64,000 nucleotides of DNA from a virus, in IMG/VR virus record IMGVR_UViG_3300044953_000102, positions 1 to 64,000 of that record. One strand, 5' to 3'. Position numbers and translations under genes: made by a program. The first letter of the stretch is position 1; each line of letters starts with the position of its first letter. The notes below the pieces were generated by a model that was not told where the DNA came from, made no database searches, and saw only the letters and a list, made by a program, of their open reading frames with translations. Of the stretch, positions 30,097-63,238 are shown piece after piece.

Positions 30097-30301
30097 CTTC
30101 TTTTTCTAAAGGTAATTTAACATCCCAATCTGGATTATATACTAACCATTCGTCTGAACTTTCATCATCACAAGATGTGTGTAATGATAAACCTGGCATA
30201 AGATCTATTATATAATAATAGTAATCATAACCATTTTGACTTTCAGAGTTTAAAACTTCTACTTTTTCAAAACCCATATTAATTATTTCTTGTTCTGTCA
30301 T
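30035..30301 (-). CDS. Small hypothetical protein of 88 residues
   Basis: Acidic, with GFEKVEVLNSESQNGYDYYY near the N-terminus, a pattern I associate with a common small Bacteroidota phage family. It couples to the upstream gene by ATGA. Its 3' end lies inside the opposing gene. Confidence 0.7.
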   Translation of the reverse strand: MTEQEIINMGFEKVEVLNSESQNGYDYYYYIIDLMPGLSLHTSCDDESSDEWLVYNPDWDVKLPLEKEAILQLFQIAKVQGYLNQHHQ

Positions 30302-30771
30302 TTTTCTATCATTGTTTCCATGAATACTGTATGGTTAAGAATCTCAAAACTATATTTTTGCTTTACTTCAATATAATTAGTATTTTCTTTAGAATAAACA
30401 CCTTTTTCTTTAATTCTTAAATCTCTTAAGTTTTTAAGAGTTAATGTTGCTATATGAAGATTATCTTTATCATCTGACTTCATCATTTTTACAACATTTT
30501 GCACCTCTGTTTCTGTTAAATATTCAAATTTTTTAAGTAACATTAACTCAGCCATATATATAAAGGGTCGGAAATCATCCTTTTTAGTACCCTTATAATA
30601 CATATACCATAGATAGTTTAGATTATTATCATAACCATCTGTTAAATTATAATGCTCTTCAGATATTGCTGCTACTAAATCTTTTATTTCTTTCATTAGC
30701 TCTTTCATTTTGTTAAATGTCTCTACATCAGAATATGTATCTGATTGTGTTCCACGGAAGAATGGAGTCAT
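30298..30771 (-). CDS. Hypothetical protein downstream of the photoproduct lyase gene
   Basis: Start choice is uncertain. The frame is open from 30921, deep inside the lyase gene. The ATG at 30771 gives a 44-base overlap and an N-terminus MTPFFRGTQSDTYSDV; the ATG at 30708 lies after the lyase stop and would give about 137 residues. The protein is helical and charged, without a known domain. Confidence 0.65.
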   Translation of the reverse strand: MTPFFRGTQSDTYSDVETFNKMKELMKEIKDLVAAISEEHYNLTDGYDNNLNYLWYMYYKGTKKDDFRPFIYMAELMLLKKFEYLTETEVQNVVKMMKSDDKDNLHIATLTLKNLRDLRIKEKGVYSKENTNYIEVKQKYSFEILNHTVFMETMIEK

Positions 30772-31597
30772 GTAAAGCTCTAAATTCTTCAATGTATTTG
30801 GATTTACACCCGGTCTTGTACCTAATATTTCTTCCTCCAAACTCAGAAGTTTTGGGTTCTTGTATAGATGGATTCCAAAGAATTTCTTCGCCCATGAGCC
30901 CATTTTTGATGTTGTATTCATGTTTATCTTTATTATGTGTTAGAAAGATTACTTCAGCTTTAACATCATCTGTATCCCAACTGTTATATATTGCATGTTT
31001 CTTAATTATATCAAACAAAAACTCATATTCAGTTAACCAATTATCATGAACAATAACAGGGCTAAAGTTTAAGTGCACTTCATAACCAGCATCAATAAAT
31101 CTTGGCACAGCATTTAATCTTAAATCAATAGGGCTAGTATTAGGTTCAAGTATCTTTCTCCATTTCTCTGGCATTAGACTAAATCTTATTCTAATTTTTT
31201 CATATGGATCAAACTGTAGCAAATCTGCATTTACATACTTAGTAGCAAATGAACCCATAGCAAGTGGATGATCCCGGAAGAACTTAAATATAGTCTTCCA
31301 ATCATGATATTTAACATGCAGAGCAAAGTCTTCATTACAAGAGATATCATAAGTAATATGCTCTCCTGTTTGATTAGGTTTCTCTACATCAGCAAACCAA
31401 ACATGTGAATTAATCTCTGTCAGGATATCCATAGTATTTGTTGCTATAGATAATCCTTCCGGCTTGTGCCTCTTCATATAACAGTAACCACAGTTATAAA
31501 GGCACCCGTGACCAAAACTGGGTGAAATAAAATCTGTACTTCTTCCTGATGATCTTATTTTAAATGTTTTTCTGGTAACTTTCTCTACTAGACTCAC
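30728..31597 (-). CDS. Radical SAM protein of the spore photoproduct lyase family
   Basis: 289 residues. The iron-sulfur cluster motif is CLYNCGYC (Cys 32, 36, 39), the CX3CX2C form of radical SAM enzymes. YDISCNEDFAL contains Cys 87 at a distance similar to the hydrogen-donating Cys of Bacillus SplB. SPL splits the thymine spore photoproduct back to two thymines using SAM. The start is GTG overlapping the upstream stop in GTGA. It is shorter than SplB (about 340 residues), so other radical SAM DNA modification functions are possible. Confidence 0.85.
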   Translation of the reverse strand: MSLVEKVTRKTFKIRSSGRSTDFISPSFGHGCLYNCGYCYMKRHKPEGLSIATNTMDILTEINSHVWFADVEKPNQTGEHITYDISCNEDFALHVKYHDWKTIFKFFRDHPLAMGSFATKYVNADLLQFDPYEKIRIRFSLMPEKWRKILEPNTSPIDLRLNAVPRFIDAGYEVHLNFSPVIVHDNWLTEYEFLFDIIKKHAIYNSWDTDDVKAEVIFLTHNKDKHEYNIKNGLMGEEILWNPSIQEPKTSEFGGRNIRYKTGCKSKYIEEFRALHDSILPWNTIRYIF

Positions 31598-32684: not shown

Positions 32685-32915
32685 TTAATTGTTTTGTTTT
32701 CCTCCTGTTGATTCTCCTTCAGAATCTTCTGTAGTCTCTCCCAGATTTGCTTGTTGATCAAGTTGTAATCTGGCTCTTTCTTGCGCTCTTTCATACTCTT
32801 GCCAATGATAAATGTTTAATTCTCTCATTTTTAGGAAATCTTCAATGGTCATTTCCTCTGGTATACCATTATTTGCATGCATAATCTGCATATATACTTC
32901 TTTCATTCTTCCCAT
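32685..32915 (-). CDS. Small hypothetical protein of 76 residues
   Basis: Helical protein starting MGRMKEVYMQIMHANNGIPE, with an ERAQERARLQLDQQ coiled-coil stretch and an acidic Gly/Asn tail. Overlaps the upstream HTH gene by 13 bases. Unknown function. Confidence 0.75.
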   Translation of the reverse strand: MGRMKEVYMQIMHANNGIPEEMTIEDFLKMRELNIYHWQEYERAQERARLQLDQQANLGETTEDSEGESTGGKQNN

Positions 32916-33343
32916 AACATTTTCATGCTTTTGTCTAATAAAAACTTAATTGTTATCCTTATATCATTGTGTCCATAAATAGAACCAGCAGCTTTTAGTT
33001 TATTAAACATGTTTCTACTAATATCAATTTGAACTCTTTTATTTCTCTGTACTTGTTGAACCGATTCAATTACACTAAAATCAAAAGGAAACATTTGAGC
33101 ATATACATAAACATTTGCTTGAAACAGCTTATCTTTATAAAATTGAACAGCTATTTTTTTATTATAGTTTACTCTAGACCTTTTAATATTAAAAATTTCT
33201 GCAATCTTTGGTTCAGACATTCCAAATCTATAAGCTAAAATACCTATAAGATAACTTCTTTGATCAACAAGTGATCTTGTTCTTAGATGTTGAGAAAGTT
33301 GCTTTAATGAAGCAATAACATCCTCTTTAGTATAATTTTCCAT
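32903..33343 (-). CDS. Helix-turn-helix domain protein
   Basis: 146 residues. An HTH is visible at about residues 24-58 (ILAYRFGMSEPKIAEIFNIK then RSRVNYNKK), of the kind seen in transposase-like or sigma region 4-like domains. A C-terminal basic helical part follows. Possible transcription regulator of the leftward genes. Confidence 0.75.
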   Translation of the reverse strand: MENYTKEDVIASLKQLSQHLRTRSLVDQRSYLIGILAYRFGMSEPKIAEIFNIKRSRVNYNKKIAVQFYKDKLFQANVYVYAQMFPFDFSVIESVQQVQRNKRVQIDISRNMFNKLKAAGSIYGHNDIRITIKFLLDKSMKMLWEE

Positions 33344-33619
33344 TTATATTAAATCAAGTTGAACTTCTTTTTCTTCTATCTGATGTTCTTGATCATAAGC
33401 AATCAATCCATCTATTGGTAAAAACCTAGAAGCATCATAATACTCATAAGGAAATGATTTTTCAGTTAATTCTACTTCATTAAGTTTAAATCCTATTTTG
33501 TTTGGTTGTAAACCCATTCTTGTCATAGAAATTACAGTGTATACTACACCTTTTTTTATCCATTCCTCCAATGATATTTTTGTAGGTTTATTGCTTGCAT
33601 CAATACATATAACTTTCAT
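33344..33619 (-). CDS. Small beta-rich conserved protein of 91 residues
   Basis: Begins MKVICIDASNKPTKISLEEW and contains KKGVVYTVISM and ASRFLPID. This pattern, an SH3-like strand set with a conserved C-terminal FPY..Y.A.RF, belongs to a small family frequent in Bacteroidota and their phages, uncharacterised. It overlaps the ClpS-like gene by 20 bases. Confidence 0.78.
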   Translation of the reverse strand: MKVICIDASNKPTKISLEEWIKKGVVYTVISMTRMGLQPNKIGFKLNEVELTEKSFPYEYYDASRFLPIDGLIAYDQEHQIEEKEVQLDLI

Positions 33620-33854
33620 GCGATTCTATTTCTGTAATCAGTTCTAGTTTTTCAAGATCTGTTTTTATTTCTAACATCTCTATAAAATCCCCATTTTTTA
33701 CAAAACATTTACCATTAGTATGTGCAAGAAGTGCACATTGTTCCGCTTGTAAAGGTTCGTGTTTACAGAATCTAATAAGACATGCAATAACATACAAAAA
33801 ATCATGAGTATTATCATTATACAATACTAATTTGTGTGTGTTTGTACCTTCCAT
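33600..33854 (-). CDS. ClpS-like N-end rule adaptor
   Basis: 84 residues that resemble host-type ClpS of Bacteroidota closely: LVLYNDN, then VIACLIRFCKHEPLQAEQCA, and LLAHTNGKC. The N-degron pocket residues Asn13, Asp14 and His45 correspond to E. coli Asn34, Asp35 and His66. The next Asp, usually conserved, is Asn15. ClpS feeds proteins with bulky N-terminal residues to ClpAP; a phage copy could redirect or block host proteolysis. The N-terminal extension needed for ClpA control is almost absent (7 residues before the core), which argues for an altered delivery role. Confidence 0.85.
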   Translation of the reverse strand: MEGTNTHKLVLYNDNTHDFLYVIACLIRFCKHEPLQAEQCALLAHTNGKCFVKNGDFIEMLEIKTDLEKLELITEIESHESYMY

Positions 33855-33882
33855 ATACTACTAATATACAAAAACATTGGGG

Positions 33883-34989
33883 TTAATCTAATTTAACCCC
33901 AAAATCTTTCCATGTTATTTTATTTTGGTCAAAGTTTTCAAGTGCTTCTTTTACCCATTTTTCATCTATAGTATTCATATAACATAGTATATGTACAATA
34001 GCTTTATCATCTGGATTTAAACGGAGCAACCTTCCAATTCTTTGACTTGCTTTTCTCTCATTACCATAAGCATGCATAATAATGCCCTGTTTAAGTTCTG
34101 GAATATTCACACCCTCATTCAACTGCAATACAGTTGATAGTTGTTTAATTGTTCCCTCCTTAAATAGTTCTAGGTTTTTTTCAGATTGAGAATTACCACT
34201 ATGATAACTATAAGAACATAACTTATCAGCTTGAGCTTGTGTGTTTGCAAACACAATACATTTAGTTTTTATATGTTCCATTAATAGTTGAGTATACTTT
34301 TCTTTGCTTGGATATTCCATCATAGCTTTCATTCTCATTACTCTCAACATATGCATATTACCAGATCCGACATCTATTCTTCTAGACCAATATGTATAAT
34401 TAGACTGCTCATCTGTAAAAAATTGTTTACTAGACATTTTAACTGAATAGTTTTTTTCTTTTGATAAACTTATTTTGTGTACAATGATTTGATAGTCATT
34501 TAGAATACCATTTTCAACAGCATCATCTGCTTTAAATGTATAAACTACCGGACAGAATTCATTTAACAATTTGCCTTTTTCAGAATATCCTCTTTTAGGT
34601 GGTGTACCAGTCAGACCAAGTATAAGACCTTTATATAATTGTAAAAATCCTCTATGACTATCTAATAAACTGTGCACCTCATCTAAATATACTGCTTCAT
34701 AATCACTAGGAGTATGTTTATTTAGACTTAAATAAGTTGTGAATGTTATTCTATCTAATAAGTTTTCTTTGTTGAATTTAACAGCATCATCTTTCCAAGA
34801 CTGAAATATAGATCTCTTTGGTGCTACTACAAGTACACGCATTAATGGTGTTGTATTTCTTTCAATATGATGCAAACCCACAAGAGTTTTACCAACACCT
34901 GTACCAAGAACAACACTACATCTTTGTTTACCATTTGTAGCATCAAGTGCATCTAACTGTACTTTATTTTTTGTTATAAGTGTCTCCAT
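33883..34989 (-). CDS. SF2 DEAD/DEAH-type helicase
   Basis: 368 residues. Motif I is GTGVGKT (residues ~29-35), Ia VVAPKRS, II LDEVH (a DEVH box), III LTGTPP, and the C-terminal motif VI ASQRIGRLLR. This is a compact UvsW/RecG-like or type III restriction-like helicase as found in phages, used for fork remodelling or recombination. Adjacent to an HNH nuclease gene (5-base gap). Confidence 0.92.
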   Translation of the reverse strand: METLITKNKVQLDALDATNGKQRCSVVLGTGVGKTLVGLHHIERNTTPLMRVLVVAPKRSIFQSWKDDAVKFNKENLLDRITFTTYLSLNKHTPSDYEAVYLDEVHSLLDSHRGFLQLYKGLILGLTGTPPKRGYSEKGKLLNEFCPVVYTFKADDAVENGILNDYQIIVHKISLSKEKNYSVKMSSKQFFTDEQSNYTYWSRRIDVGSGNMHMLRVMRMKAMMEYPSKEKYTQLLMEHIKTKCIVFANTQAQADKLCSYSYHSGNSQSEKNLELFKEGTIKQLSTVLQLNEGVNIPELKQGIIMHAYGNERKASQRIGRLLRLNPDDKAIVHILCYMNTIDEKWVKEALENFDQNKITWKDFGVKLD

Positions 34990-37209: not shown

Positions 37210-37225
37210 AGAATTTAGTTTATAG

Positions 37226-37299
37226 TGGTCCCATTTGGATTCGAACCAAAGACCTACTGCTTAGAAGGCAGTTGCTCTATCCAGCTGAGCTACGGGACC
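37226..37299 (-). tRNA. tRNA-Arg (anticodon TCT)
   Basis: Full cloverleaf on the minus strand: acceptor GGTCCCG with TGGGACC, D-loop AGCTCAGCTGGATAGAGC, anticodon stem ACTGC/GCAGT around CTTCTAA, T-arm containing GGTTCGAATCC. Discriminator base A; CCA is not encoded. It reads AGA (and AGG), the arginine codon that dominates in this phage, so it likely supports late protein synthesis. Confidence 0.97.
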
Positions 37300-49731: not shown

Positions 49732-50246
49732 TACTAACTAAACTATTTGATGTTCAGAATGGTGTTGTAATTCCAACAGAACATTGCTATACATTGAGAG
49801 CATTAAAAGATGTTATGGATGAATATCCTGAAGACTATCTTAAAATATATATGTATTTGTTTTATATGTGCTGCCCTAATCCGGATTTAAATCCTTTTTT
49901 CTTTACACCAGATATGGAAAAAGAGAATATGATTATGGATCAGATTGGAGCAGAGTTTTCTACTGAAGATGAAACAGTATTTAGAGCATTACAGTTTTGT
50001 CAGAAAATGTATGAAACACCTACATCTAGAGCATACAAAGGTATTGCAACTATGTTGGATAGATTGGGTAGATATATGGAAACTACACCTATTACACACG
50101 GTCGTGATGGTAATATGAACTCTCTTATTGCAGCAGCTAAAAACTATGAAGCAATAAGACAATCTTTTAAAGGTGCATATAAAGATTTACAGGAAGAACA
50201 ATCTAGTAGAGTAAGAGGTGGACAAGGATTAGCATATGATATGTAA
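49728..50246 (+). CDS. Hypothetical protein before terminase, possible small terminase
   Basis: 172 residues, helical. LRALKDVMDEYPEDYLKIYM and RGGQGLAYDM at the end. Coupled to the terminase large subunit gene by a shared base and by position where a small subunit would be expected; no HTH motif is evident, so the role is unproven. Confidence 0.75.
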   Translation: MILTKLFDVQNGVVIPTEHCYTLRALKDVMDEYPEDYLKIYMYLFYMCCPNPDLNPFFFTPDMEKENMIMDQIGAEFSTEDETVFRALQFCQKMYETPTSRAYKGIATMLDRLGRYMETTPITHGRDGNMNSLIAAAKNYEAIRQSFKGAYKDLQEEQSSRVRGGQGLAYDM

Positions 50247-52450
50247 TGAGTGAAATTTATCAAGACATACCGACTTATGATAATGAAACATGGACAACAA
50301 CAAGTTTTGAATCCAGAGAAGACTTCAGTAACTTCATTAGAGATCTATTCAAAGAACCAGGAAAGTATAACTTTAATGAAACAACAAATCAAGTATTCAT
50401 ATCGGAATCAGTTAAATTTAAAAAAGATGGAGTATACTGTACAGCTCCATTTAAATCCCTAGACTTTATAAATTACTGGGATGATCAAAAGACAAAATGC
50501 CGTAAGGGTATTATAGTTAAAGATGGAGATAATACATGGTTTGTTGCAAGAGAGTACTACATGTGGTTAAACTTTCTTCCAATCTTTGACAAAGAAATTC
50601 AACAGTTTGGTTTTGCTAAAATTAGAGATGCACAATATCACATGGCATTGTATGAACTATTAGCAGAACTAAATTATAAACATGCAGCTATTTTAAAGAA
50701 ACGTCAGATTGCTTCTTCATATTATCATATGGGTAAGTTTATAAATCAACAATGGTTTGAAGCAGGGGTAACATTAAAGATGGGTGCATCACTAAAAGAC
50801 TATATAAATGAAAAAGGGTCTTGGAAATTTTTACAAGAGTATGCAGCATTCTTAAATGAGCATACTGCTTGGTATAGACCAATGTCACCAGATAAAGTTA
50901 TGATGTGGCAACAAAAGATTGAAGTAAGAAAAGGAGATAGAAAAACTGAGGTTGGTCTTAAAGGAACTATACAAGGTATGTCATTTGAGAAAGATCCAAC
51001 AAATGGTGTAGGGGGTCCAGTTAAATACTTCTTTCATGAGGAGGCTGGGATTGCTCCTAAGATGGATCAGACATATGAGTATATGAGACCAGCAATGAGA
51101 TCAGGTCTCATCACTACGGGAATGTTTATAGCTGCAGGATCTGTGGGGGATTTATCCCAATGTCTTCCACTTAAAGATATGATACTAAACCCTACTGCAA
51201 AAGATATATATGCGGTAGAAACAGATCTTATGGATGATAAAGGTACTGTTGGTCTTTCTGGTTTATTTATTCCAGAACAATGGTCAATGCCACCATATAT
51301 TGATAAATATGGTAATTCACTTGTAGAAGAAGCAGTAGATGCTTTAGAAAAACAATTCAAACAATGGAGAGATGAACTTGCTCCAGAAGAATATCAGTTA
51401 AGAATTTCTCAGCATCCAAGAAATATAAAAGAAGCATTTGATCATAGAACAGTATCTGTATTCCCTCCACATCTTCTTGCAGCACAAGAAAGAAGAATAG
51501 AAGATAAAGAATATGGTTTTGAATTCTTAAATATTTCAGCAGATGCTGATGGTAGACCTGAAGTTACTAAAAGTAACAAAAGGCCTATCATAGAATTTCC
51601 AGTAAACAAAAAGACAGAAGATAAAACAGGATGTCTTGTTGTTTGGGAAAGACCCGTTAAGGATCCAAATTTTGGTGATTACTATGCATCTGTTGACCCT
51701 GTATCAGAGGGTAAAACAACAACATCAGAATCATTATGTTCTATATATGTGATGAAAGCACCTATTCAAGTAACTAGACATACTGGTTCAGAATCAGAAA
51801 CTTATATAGAACAAGGTAAAATTGTAGCAGCTTGGTGTGGTAGATATGATGATATTAATCAGACACATAAGCAACTAGAACTTATTATTGAATGGTATAA
51901 TGCTTGGACACTTGTAGAGAATAATATATCATTGTTTATTCAATACATGATATCTAGACGTAAGCAGAAATATCTTGTGCCAAAAAATCAAATCATGTTC
52001 TTAAAAGATCTTGGATCAAATAACAATGTATTCCAAGAATATGGGTGGAAAAATACGGGTACTTTATTTAAATCACATCTTCTTAGTTATGCCATAGAAT
52101 ATACTAAAGAAGAATTAGATCAAGAATTAAAATCTGATGGTACTGTTGTAAGAACAACATATGGTATTGAACGTATACCAGACCCTATGTTAATCAAAGA
52201 GATGAGAGAATATGCAGATGGGGTTAACGTGGATAGACTAGTTTCTTTTGCAGCTCTTGTTGCTTTTATGAAAATTCAAGAGTCAAATAGAGGATATAGT
52301 AAAAGAACAATAATGGATGAGACTGCTAAAAACTTGCAAAAGTCAGAAAATTTGTTTAAATTAAATAAGAGTCCGTTTAGACATATGGGCAGTAAAATGA
52401 GCAACACTACTGGTAGATTTAAAAAATCTGCATTTAAAAATATTAAATAA
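50246..52450 (+). CDS. terL: Terminase large subunit
   Basis: 734 residues. The ATPase part is divergent: AILKKRQIASSYYH stands where Walker A is expected and KYFFHEEAG as Walker B with the catalytic Glu. The C-terminal RNase H-like nuclease shows YYASVDPVSEG (first Asp). FLKDLGSNNNVF and PDPMLIKEMREY occur in the last third. It packages DNA into the procapsid. The portal gene follows by 6 bases. Confidence 0.9.
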   Translation: MSEIYQDIPTYDNETWTTTSFESREDFSNFIRDLFKEPGKYNFNETTNQVFISESVKFKKDGVYCTAPFKSLDFINYWDDQKTKCRKGIIVKDGDNTWFVAREYYMWLNFLPIFDKEIQQFGFAKIRDAQYHMALYELLAELNYKHAAILKKRQIASSYYHMGKFINQQWFEAGVTLKMGASLKDYINEKGSWKFLQEYAAFLNEHTAWYRPMSPDKVMMWQQKIEVRKGDRKTEVGLKGTIQGMSFEKDPTNGVGGPVKYFFHEEAGIAPKMDQTYEYMRPAMRSGLITTGMFIAAGSVGDLSQCLPLKDMILNPTAKDIYAVETDLMDDKGTVGLSGLFIPEQWSMPPYIDKYGNSLVEEAVDALEKQFKQWRDELAPEEYQLRISQHPRNIKEAFDHRTVSVFPPHLLAAQERRIEDKEYGFEFLNISADADGRPEVTKSNKRPIIEFPVNKKTEDKTGCLVVWERPVKDPNFGDYYASVDPVSEGKTTTSESLCSIYVMKAPIQVTRHTGSESETYIEQGKIVAAWCGRYDDINQTHKQLELIIEWYNAWTLVENNISLFIQYMISRRKQKYLVPKNQIMFLKDLGSNNNVFQEYGWKNTGTLFKSHLLSYAIEYTKEELDQELKSDGTVVRTTYGIERIPDPMLIKEMREYADGVNVDRLVSFAALVAFMKIQESNRGYSKRTIMDETAKNLQKSENLFKLNKSPFRHMGSKMSNTTGRFKKSAFKNIK

Positions 52451-62620: not shown

Positions 62621-63238
62621 ATGGAATCAAAACCAAGAACTTTAAAAAGACCAGAAATTGTAAAAGTGCCTCAATCAACTGGCATACCAAATATTGATAA
62701 ACCAAGTACAGGAACATCAAAAGATACTCCTGAATTTAAAACCATGAACCCTCTAATTACAGAGTCATGTGTAGAATATCTTAATTATAGAATTCAACAA
62801 GAAGAATATTCTTCTAGAATCTACATGGCAATGACGATGTGGTTGGATGAAAAAGGATTTAAAGGAGCTGCTGGTCTTTGGAGAAAATATTCAGATGAAG
62901 AACTTACTCATGCTGACATAGCACGTAAGTATCTTTTATCTTTTGGTGTACAACCATTAACTCCAAGATTAGACCAACCTCAACAAGATTTTCCAGGAAG
63001 TCTTCCTGAGATTATTCAGTTATCTTATGAGCATGAGATAGAAGTATCTACTCAAATTAAAAAGATGGCTGATCATGCACTTGGCATGAAAGATCATATG
63101 TTATATGAATTATGTCTTGGTTATCTTAAAGAACAAGTTGAAGAGCATGATAAAATGCAAACATGGGTTGACAAATTAAAAACATTTGGTACAGATCCAT
63201 TAGCTCTTAGATTACTTGATAATGATATGGCCGGATAA
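62621..63238 (+). CDS. Ferritin with complete ferroxidase centre
   Basis: 205 residues: a 40-residue disordered N-terminal extension, then a full four-helix ferritin. Ligands matching E. coli FtnA: Glu61 (EEYSS), Glu94 and His97 (EELTHAD), Glu139 (YEHEIEV), Gln172 and Glu175 (KEQVEEH); the conserved Tyr in YSSRIY is present. Ferritins store iron as a mineral. The gene sits in the virion block, coupled to the connector-like gene, so it may be carried by the particle or protect late replication from iron damage. The extension is unusual and could anchor it to a virion. Confidence 0.9.
   Translation: MESKPRTLKRPEIVKVPQSTGIPNIDKPSTGTSKDTPEFKTMNPLITESCVEYLNYRIQQEEYSSRIYMAMTMWLDEKGFKGAAGLWRKYSDEELTHADIARKYLLSFGVQPLTPRLDQPQQDFPGSLPEIIQLSYEHEIEVSTQIKKMADHALGMKDHMLYELCLGYLKEQVEEHDKMQTWVDKLKTFGTDPLALRLLDNDMAG

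Follow-up and report, generated by a model that had tools for sequence, protein, structure and literature searches.

ClpS, the adaptor of the bacterial N-degron pathway, has a peptide-binding core and an N-terminal extension (NTE) that lies outside this core (PMC12493166). In Escherichia coli, the NTE comprises residues 2–26 and threads into the ClpA pore; the pull of ClpA on the NTE remodels ClpS, and blocking NTE entry inhibits ClpS-assisted degradation (PMC9663308). In Caulobacter ClpS, the core grips the α-amino group via Asn47, Asp49, and His79, and Val56 and Val78 belong to the hydrophobic pocket (PMC12493166). Leptospira ClpS1 has an altered pocket with Asp in place of the His; it retains ClpA binding and is an inhibitor of the ClpA ATPase (PMC12493166). 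Phages also encode proteins of this kind. The ClpS proteins described in jumbo phages (Iyer et al. 2021) were proposed to bring targets to the host ClpAP (PMC7824862), and Gp53 of phage SPO1, an adaptor-like protein, vies for ClpC with the adaptors of its host (PMC6873191).

Here, we describe a phage-encoded ClpS core that lacks the NTE. The DNA analyzed is a stretch of 64,000 nt (henceforth the window) that corresponds to positions 1–64,000 of the IMG/VR virus record IMGVR_UViG_3300044953_000102, which has a total length of 114,943 bp.

A ClpS Domain Protein in a crAss-Related Phage

The terminase large subunit (50,246–52,450, plus strand; family match), the portal, and the major head protein of the genome match phage families. 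The terminase, on which the phage placement is based, has its nearest relatives in crAss-like phages and the Flavobacterium psychrophilum Fpv20 group, which share only ~25% identity with it, and we call the genome a crAss-related phage in this qualified sense. From the terminase placement and the cellular relatives of the phage ClpS, we infer that the hosts are Bacteroidota; the 80 best cellular relatives listed are nearly all labeled Bacteroidota, with one MAG labeled Verrucomicrobia.

The clpS-like ORF (33,600–33,854, minus strand) encodes 84 aa, and the plus strand of the same interval is interrupted by stops. Direct reading of the protein sequence reveals N13, D14, N15, and H45 as well as the motifs AEQCA and NGKC. 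The protein matches the Pfam ClpS model PF02617 with 49.9 bits against a cut-off of 23 (E = 2.8e-13) and weakly matches PHROG 27368 ("ATP-dependent protease"); the NCBIfam ClpS equivalogs (PRK00033 and PRK13019 series) are not reached, with at most 17.2 bits against cut-offs of 107–149. The AlphaFold model, for which an alignment of 51 phage relatives was the input, has a pLDDT of 92.6 and the secondary structure order strand-helix-helix-strand-helix-strand. It superposes on Mycolicibacterium ClpS (9ayo) over 76 residues with a Z score of 15.2 and an rmsd of 1.0 Å, matches E. coli ClpS (3o2b) with a Z score of 14.3, and overall matches ClpS from Arabidopsis, E. coli, and Caulobacter with Z scores of 14–15. 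ClpS and ribosomal L7/L12 share one fold; however, identity with the L7/L12 C-terminal domain was rejected, as its best Z score is 9.9 compared with 15.2 for ClpS and the Pfam match is to ClpS. The product of the 84-aa ORF is a genuine ClpS-domain protein. The preliminary description had placed a phage ClpS homolog of the Bacteroidota type at this position without naming a strand; the Pfam match and the motifs confirm this assignment, and the structure prediction with ClpS overlay that it had suggested yielded the ClpS fold.

The phage genome was searched for ClpP, a Clp_N ATPase, and Leu/Phe-transferase, and none was found; any partner must therefore be that of the host. Clp_N ATPases are present in all eight ClpS-bearing Bacteroidota genomes tested. 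Moreover, 146 of 148 Bacteroidota species genomes encode their own ClpS, so the phage gene supplies no missing function.

Distribution and Selection of Phage clpS

Two scans of the viral collection, each guided by an alignment, identified 73 and then 423 loci with a relative of the window protein (the best 80 of the 423 were used). The search for clpS in other Bacteroidota phages that had been advised at the outset was productive, with relatives that are 46–99% identical in well over 70 viral loci. For comparison, 71 distinct phage proteins were set against 78 Bacteroidota ClpS selected by similarity. Because this cellular set is biased by the search patterns, we added a phylum-wide survey of 70 ClpS from the 148 Bacteroidota species genomes, consisting of the 30 best-scoring sequences and 40 spread across lower scores.

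The pairwise dN/dS of phage clpS has a median of 0.30 in 717 pairs, a value indicative of purifying selection. In a tree based on 70 columns, the phage set forms one side of a branch with a support of 74, and a single capture of clpS by the phage clade is likely. Given the many relatives, the dN/dS of 0.30, and the near-total synteny described later, the observation is no chance effect.

The N-Terminal Extension

Only six residues precede the first conserved core residue in the window ClpS. Two tandem TAG stops (33,858–33,863, minus strand; read directly from the sequence) are located in frame just 5′ of the clpS ATG, two codons upstream of it. The short N terminus is therefore real, and a miscalled start hiding an NTE is excluded. 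The spacing from the Met to the pocket residue Asn13 equals 12 residues in 65 of the 71 distinct phage relatives, compared with about 24–38 residues from the Met to the ND motif in nearly all Bacteroidota cellular ClpS. Among the cellular proteins, none with a start that can be judged is limited to the short N terminus, and three have no Met by which to judge. The missing extension, first noticed in the window protein, is thus a property of the clade.

The Degron Pocket and Other Conserved Surfaces

The residues of the window protein equivalent to those of the Caulobacter pocket are Asn13, Asn15, His45, Val22, and Ala44. In the triad that grips the α-amino group, N13 and H45 are present, and the third residue is Asn15 in place of Asp. 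Asn15 had initially been taken as the distinctive alteration of this pocket, a view that we no longer hold: site 15 varies among the 71 phage proteins (Asp in 48, Asn in 11, Ser in 5, Lys in 3, Ala in 2, His in 1, and Glu in 1), and Asn is also found in a few cellular ClpS (4 of 78 in the similarity-selected set and 2 of 70 in the survey). An acid occupies the site in 49 of 71 phage proteins versus 68 of 70 survey proteins. The stronger pocket differences are Ala44, Ile/Val22, and Phe/Tyr19. Val or Ile is found at site 44 in 67 of 70 survey proteins but in only 8 of 71 phage proteins, most of which have Ala, and Val22, present in all 70 survey proteins, is found in 36 of 71 phage proteins, where the site is Val or Ile. 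N13 and D14 are retained in 70 of 71 phage proteins. The pocket is thus retuned, most clearly at site 44, with Asn15 as a minor part of the change.

Two further candidate features were rejected. Loss of His45 seemed to be a phage hallmark when compared with the similarity-selected cells, none of which had lost it (0 of 80), but 4 of the 70 survey proteins have Asp at this site, and His45 is present in 57 of 71 phage proteins versus 66 of 70 survey proteins (p = 0.02). Sites 15 and 45 seemed to change together (Fisher p = 6e-4 on raw counts), but the tree offers too few independent pairs to support such coupling. Asp replaces the pocket His in 11 of 71 phage relatives; by analogy with Leptospira ClpS1 and the ClpS-like domain of UBR1, both of which have Asp, this replacement need not signify loss of the pocket. 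The phage profile also matches the UBR1 domain.

Outside the pocket, the strongest phage-specific fixed position is Ala24 in helix 1, found in 70 of 71 phages and variable in cells; Arg/Lys28 in the same helix, also variable in cells, is found in 69 of 71. The E. coli ClpA-contact residues E79, E82, and K84 fall in helix 3, for which the alignment register to the phage protein is ambiguous, and the profile–profile alignment of the phage ClpS ended before this helix.

A Fixed Locus and a Graded Series of ClpS Forms

In the window, clpS is preceded by an SF2 helicase gene (ResIII/Helicase_C; 33,883–34,989, minus strand), identified by family match and synteny, and followed by a 91-aa ORF (33,344–33,619, minus strand) without any family match. 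The helicase precedes clpS in 72 of 74 distinct crAss-related loci and the 91-aa ORF follows it in 73 of 74, the three gaps being contig ends that adjoin clpS. The 3′ end of clpS and the 91-aa ORF overlap by 20 nt in most loci, including the window. The ORF that usually comes next encodes 146 aa (32,903–33,343, minus strand), has no Pfam match, and is HTH-like by eye only.

Many relatives also have, a few genes after clpS, a conserved gene of the spore photoproduct lyase type. In the window, its product is a radical-SAM protein assigned to this family (PF20903, E = 7e-22; 30,728–31,597, minus strand), possibly a phage enzyme for the repair of UV damage, and the gene overlaps the next ORF (30,298–30,921, minus strand) by ~190 nt in another frame, an arrangement shared by locus L001 (3,095–3,982 and 3,789–4,313). 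The window also encodes a ferritin-like protein (PF00210, E = 2e-25; 62,621–63,238, plus strand) among the virion genes, and its only tRNA gene is a tRNA-Arg (anticodon tct; 37,225–37,299, minus strand).

A separate scan was anchored on the helicase and not on ClpS. Diverged relatives (loci L233, L275, L283, L301, and L310) encode a cell-like ClpS with an NTE at the helicase-adjacent site, NTE-less ClpS with a pocket are also found there, and in loci L234, L236–L239, and L241 the protein encoded just after the helicase has the ClpS fold but neither the ND motif nor the His. ClpS is absent beside the same helicase in about thirty distinct loci. The pocketless proteins are 73–76 aa long and keep QAEQCA and the helix-1 motif A-C-x-x-[RK], Ala24 and Arg/Lys28 included. 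A model of the pocketless form has a pLDDT of 97.0 and matches ClpS with a Z score of 15.0 and 1.0 Å at 7% identity to the best match; sequence-based annotation would probably miss these proteins. As the simplest history, we infer that a host clpS was captured, that the NTE was then lost, and that the pocket was finally lost in some branches.

Possible Functions of the Phage ClpS

The best reading of these data, which we hold tentatively and at somewhat less than an even chance, is that the protein is a dead-end ClpS that would sit on host ClpA/ClpC and prevent N-degrons from being handed over. A ClpS core would have been acquired from a Bacteroidota host and would have become fixed beside the phage helicase gene, and its product would dock on the N-domain of host ClpA/ClpC, with the window member probably still binding N-degron ends in its retuned pocket. 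With no NTE for ClpA/ClpC to grip, substrate hand-over would fail, and the phage ClpS would compete with host ClpS, so that N-degron degradation would be damped or redirected during infection, presumably to the benefit of the phage. This reading derives from the NTE being what ClpA pulls on, and by analogy with the work in E. coli (PMC9663308) its loss would favor inhibition over delivery. It builds on the ClpS fold, the loss of the NTE in 65 of 71 relatives, the lack of Clp partners in the phage, and purifying selection; on the NTE-bearing ClpS that diverged relatives encode at this locus, which is the likely starting state; on the other members of the locus that lose the ND motif and keep the fold; and on the precedents of SPO1 Gp53 (PMC6873191) and Leptospira ClpS1, which inhibits the ClpA ATPase (PMC12493166). 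A fuller scenario, in which the crAss-related clade converted a host N-recognin into a protease-jamming adaptor by deleting the NTE and, in some branches, into a pure plug without a pocket that occupies ClpA/ClpC, is possible but doubtful. If true, it would provide a natural dominant-negative of the bacterial N-degron pathway made from the pathway's own adaptor and a tool for probing the role of this pathway in Bacteroidota, and it would be a hint that these phages are held in check by N-degron proteolysis.

Several observations run counter to a dead-end ClpS. The E. coli NTE accounts for part of the effect of ClpS on ClpA, and by analogy binding by a core without the NTE may be weak. The retention of N13/D14 in 70 of 71 proteins suggests that substrate binding may still matter, and the presumed helix-3 interface (E. 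coli E79, E82, and K84) lies in the region of ambiguous alignment register. Finally, the dead-end model leaves Ala24 (70 of 71) unexplained. This residue and Arg/Lys28 (69 of 71), both of which persist in the pocketless proteins, argue for a ClpS-fold module neofunctionalized outside proteolysis that would act in the phage replication/repair block via this face of helix 1, an explanation that we consider rather unlikely. That clpS is strictly linked to the SF2 helicase gene and that ribosomal L7/L12 uses the same fold (Z about 10) are consistent with such a module, but gene linkage alone is weak evidence of a physical partner, and N13/D14, which contact the N-degron and would be needless in this role, are kept in most members.

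Also unlikely is an active adaptor of changed specificity that delivers other proteins to host ClpA/ClpC–ClpP via the retuned pocket or a new helix-1 surface. Such an adaptor would account for the retention of N13/D14 (70 of 71) and His45 (57 of 71), the shifts from Val/Ile to mostly Ala at site 44 and from Val to Val/Ile at site 22 could alter the accepted side chain (pocket residues according to PMC12493166), and delivery of targets to host ClpAP is the role earlier proposed for jumbo-phage ClpS (PMC7824862). However, the NTE is absent, and its blocked entry into ClpA inhibits delivery in E. coli (PMC9663308); moreover, about six relatives have kept the gene at this locus without the ND motif and His. 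An N-degron sponge that shields proteins with exposed N-degrons without touching ClpA/ClpC is quite improbable: the window member has the pocket asparagine, aspartate, and histidine, and the NTE lies outside the part of ClpS that binds peptides (PMC12493166), but the pocket is eroded in several subclades that still keep the gene, and stoichiometric shielding would require the protein to be highly expressed. A nonfunctional gene, passively carried along or in decay, is strongly disfavored and very improbable since, despite drifting pocket sites and the absence of the gene from some phages with the same helicase, the median dN/dS of 0.30, the near-total synteny, the uniform length, and the confident folds of even the most diverged members speak against it.

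Comparison with Known Systems

The phage form shares with Bacteroidota cellular ClpS (PF02617) the family, the fold, the ND motif, His45, and the QAEQC and GKC motifs. It differs in that it lacks the NTE of ~14 residues, has Ala44 for Val/Ile and the fixed Ala24 and Arg/Lys28, and adds a C-terminal tail of ~7 residues ending in [ML]-[YH]. The ClpS domains of jumbo phages (PA5oct, Phosso, Atu_ph07, and others) are likewise phage encoded but belong to other hosts and gene neighborhoods, and in PA5oct, Phosso, and Atu_ph07 the NTE is still present, with ~26 residues before the pocket Asn/Asp. Alone among jumbo-phage ClpS, that of Vibrio phage 2.275 has the 12-residue spacing, with no upstream start and with Asp for the His, and its loss of the NTE is apparently independent of that in the crAss-related clade; this NTE-less protein (2.275.O, L208, 392–748) also has an acidic C-terminal extension. 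The closest ClpS in the phage collection (40–43% identity) are those of three uncultured phages of 634–642 kb (LR756504, LR756502, and LR745206), which retain the NTE and have none of the neighbor genes of the window. In Erwinia phage Kaldavass (L209) and Cronobacter phage GAP32 (L210), a ClpS-like domain with a degraded ND motif is located behind an extra N-terminal domain, and the gene adjoins that for translation factor IF-3.

SPO1 Gp53 resembles the role proposed here in that it is a phage protein that serves a host Clp ATPase as an adaptor and is a rival to host adaptors (PMC6873191); unlike the window protein, it has a mass of 25 kDa, hardly resembles host adaptors in sequence, and is directed at Bacillus ClpC. 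The UBR1 ClpS-like domain and Leptospira ClpS1 have Asp for the pocket His, as do 11 of 71 phage relatives, but UBR1 is a large eukaryotic E3 ligase and Leptospira ClpS1 has an NTE. Phage ClpS was already known from jumbo phages. The NTE-less, locus-fixed clade and its pocketless descendants are new, and no report of them, or of ClpS in crAss-like phages, was found in the literature searched. Whereas the phage ClpS described earlier were seen as likely ClpAP feeders, an NTE-less clade with intermediates points to inhibition or a new use.
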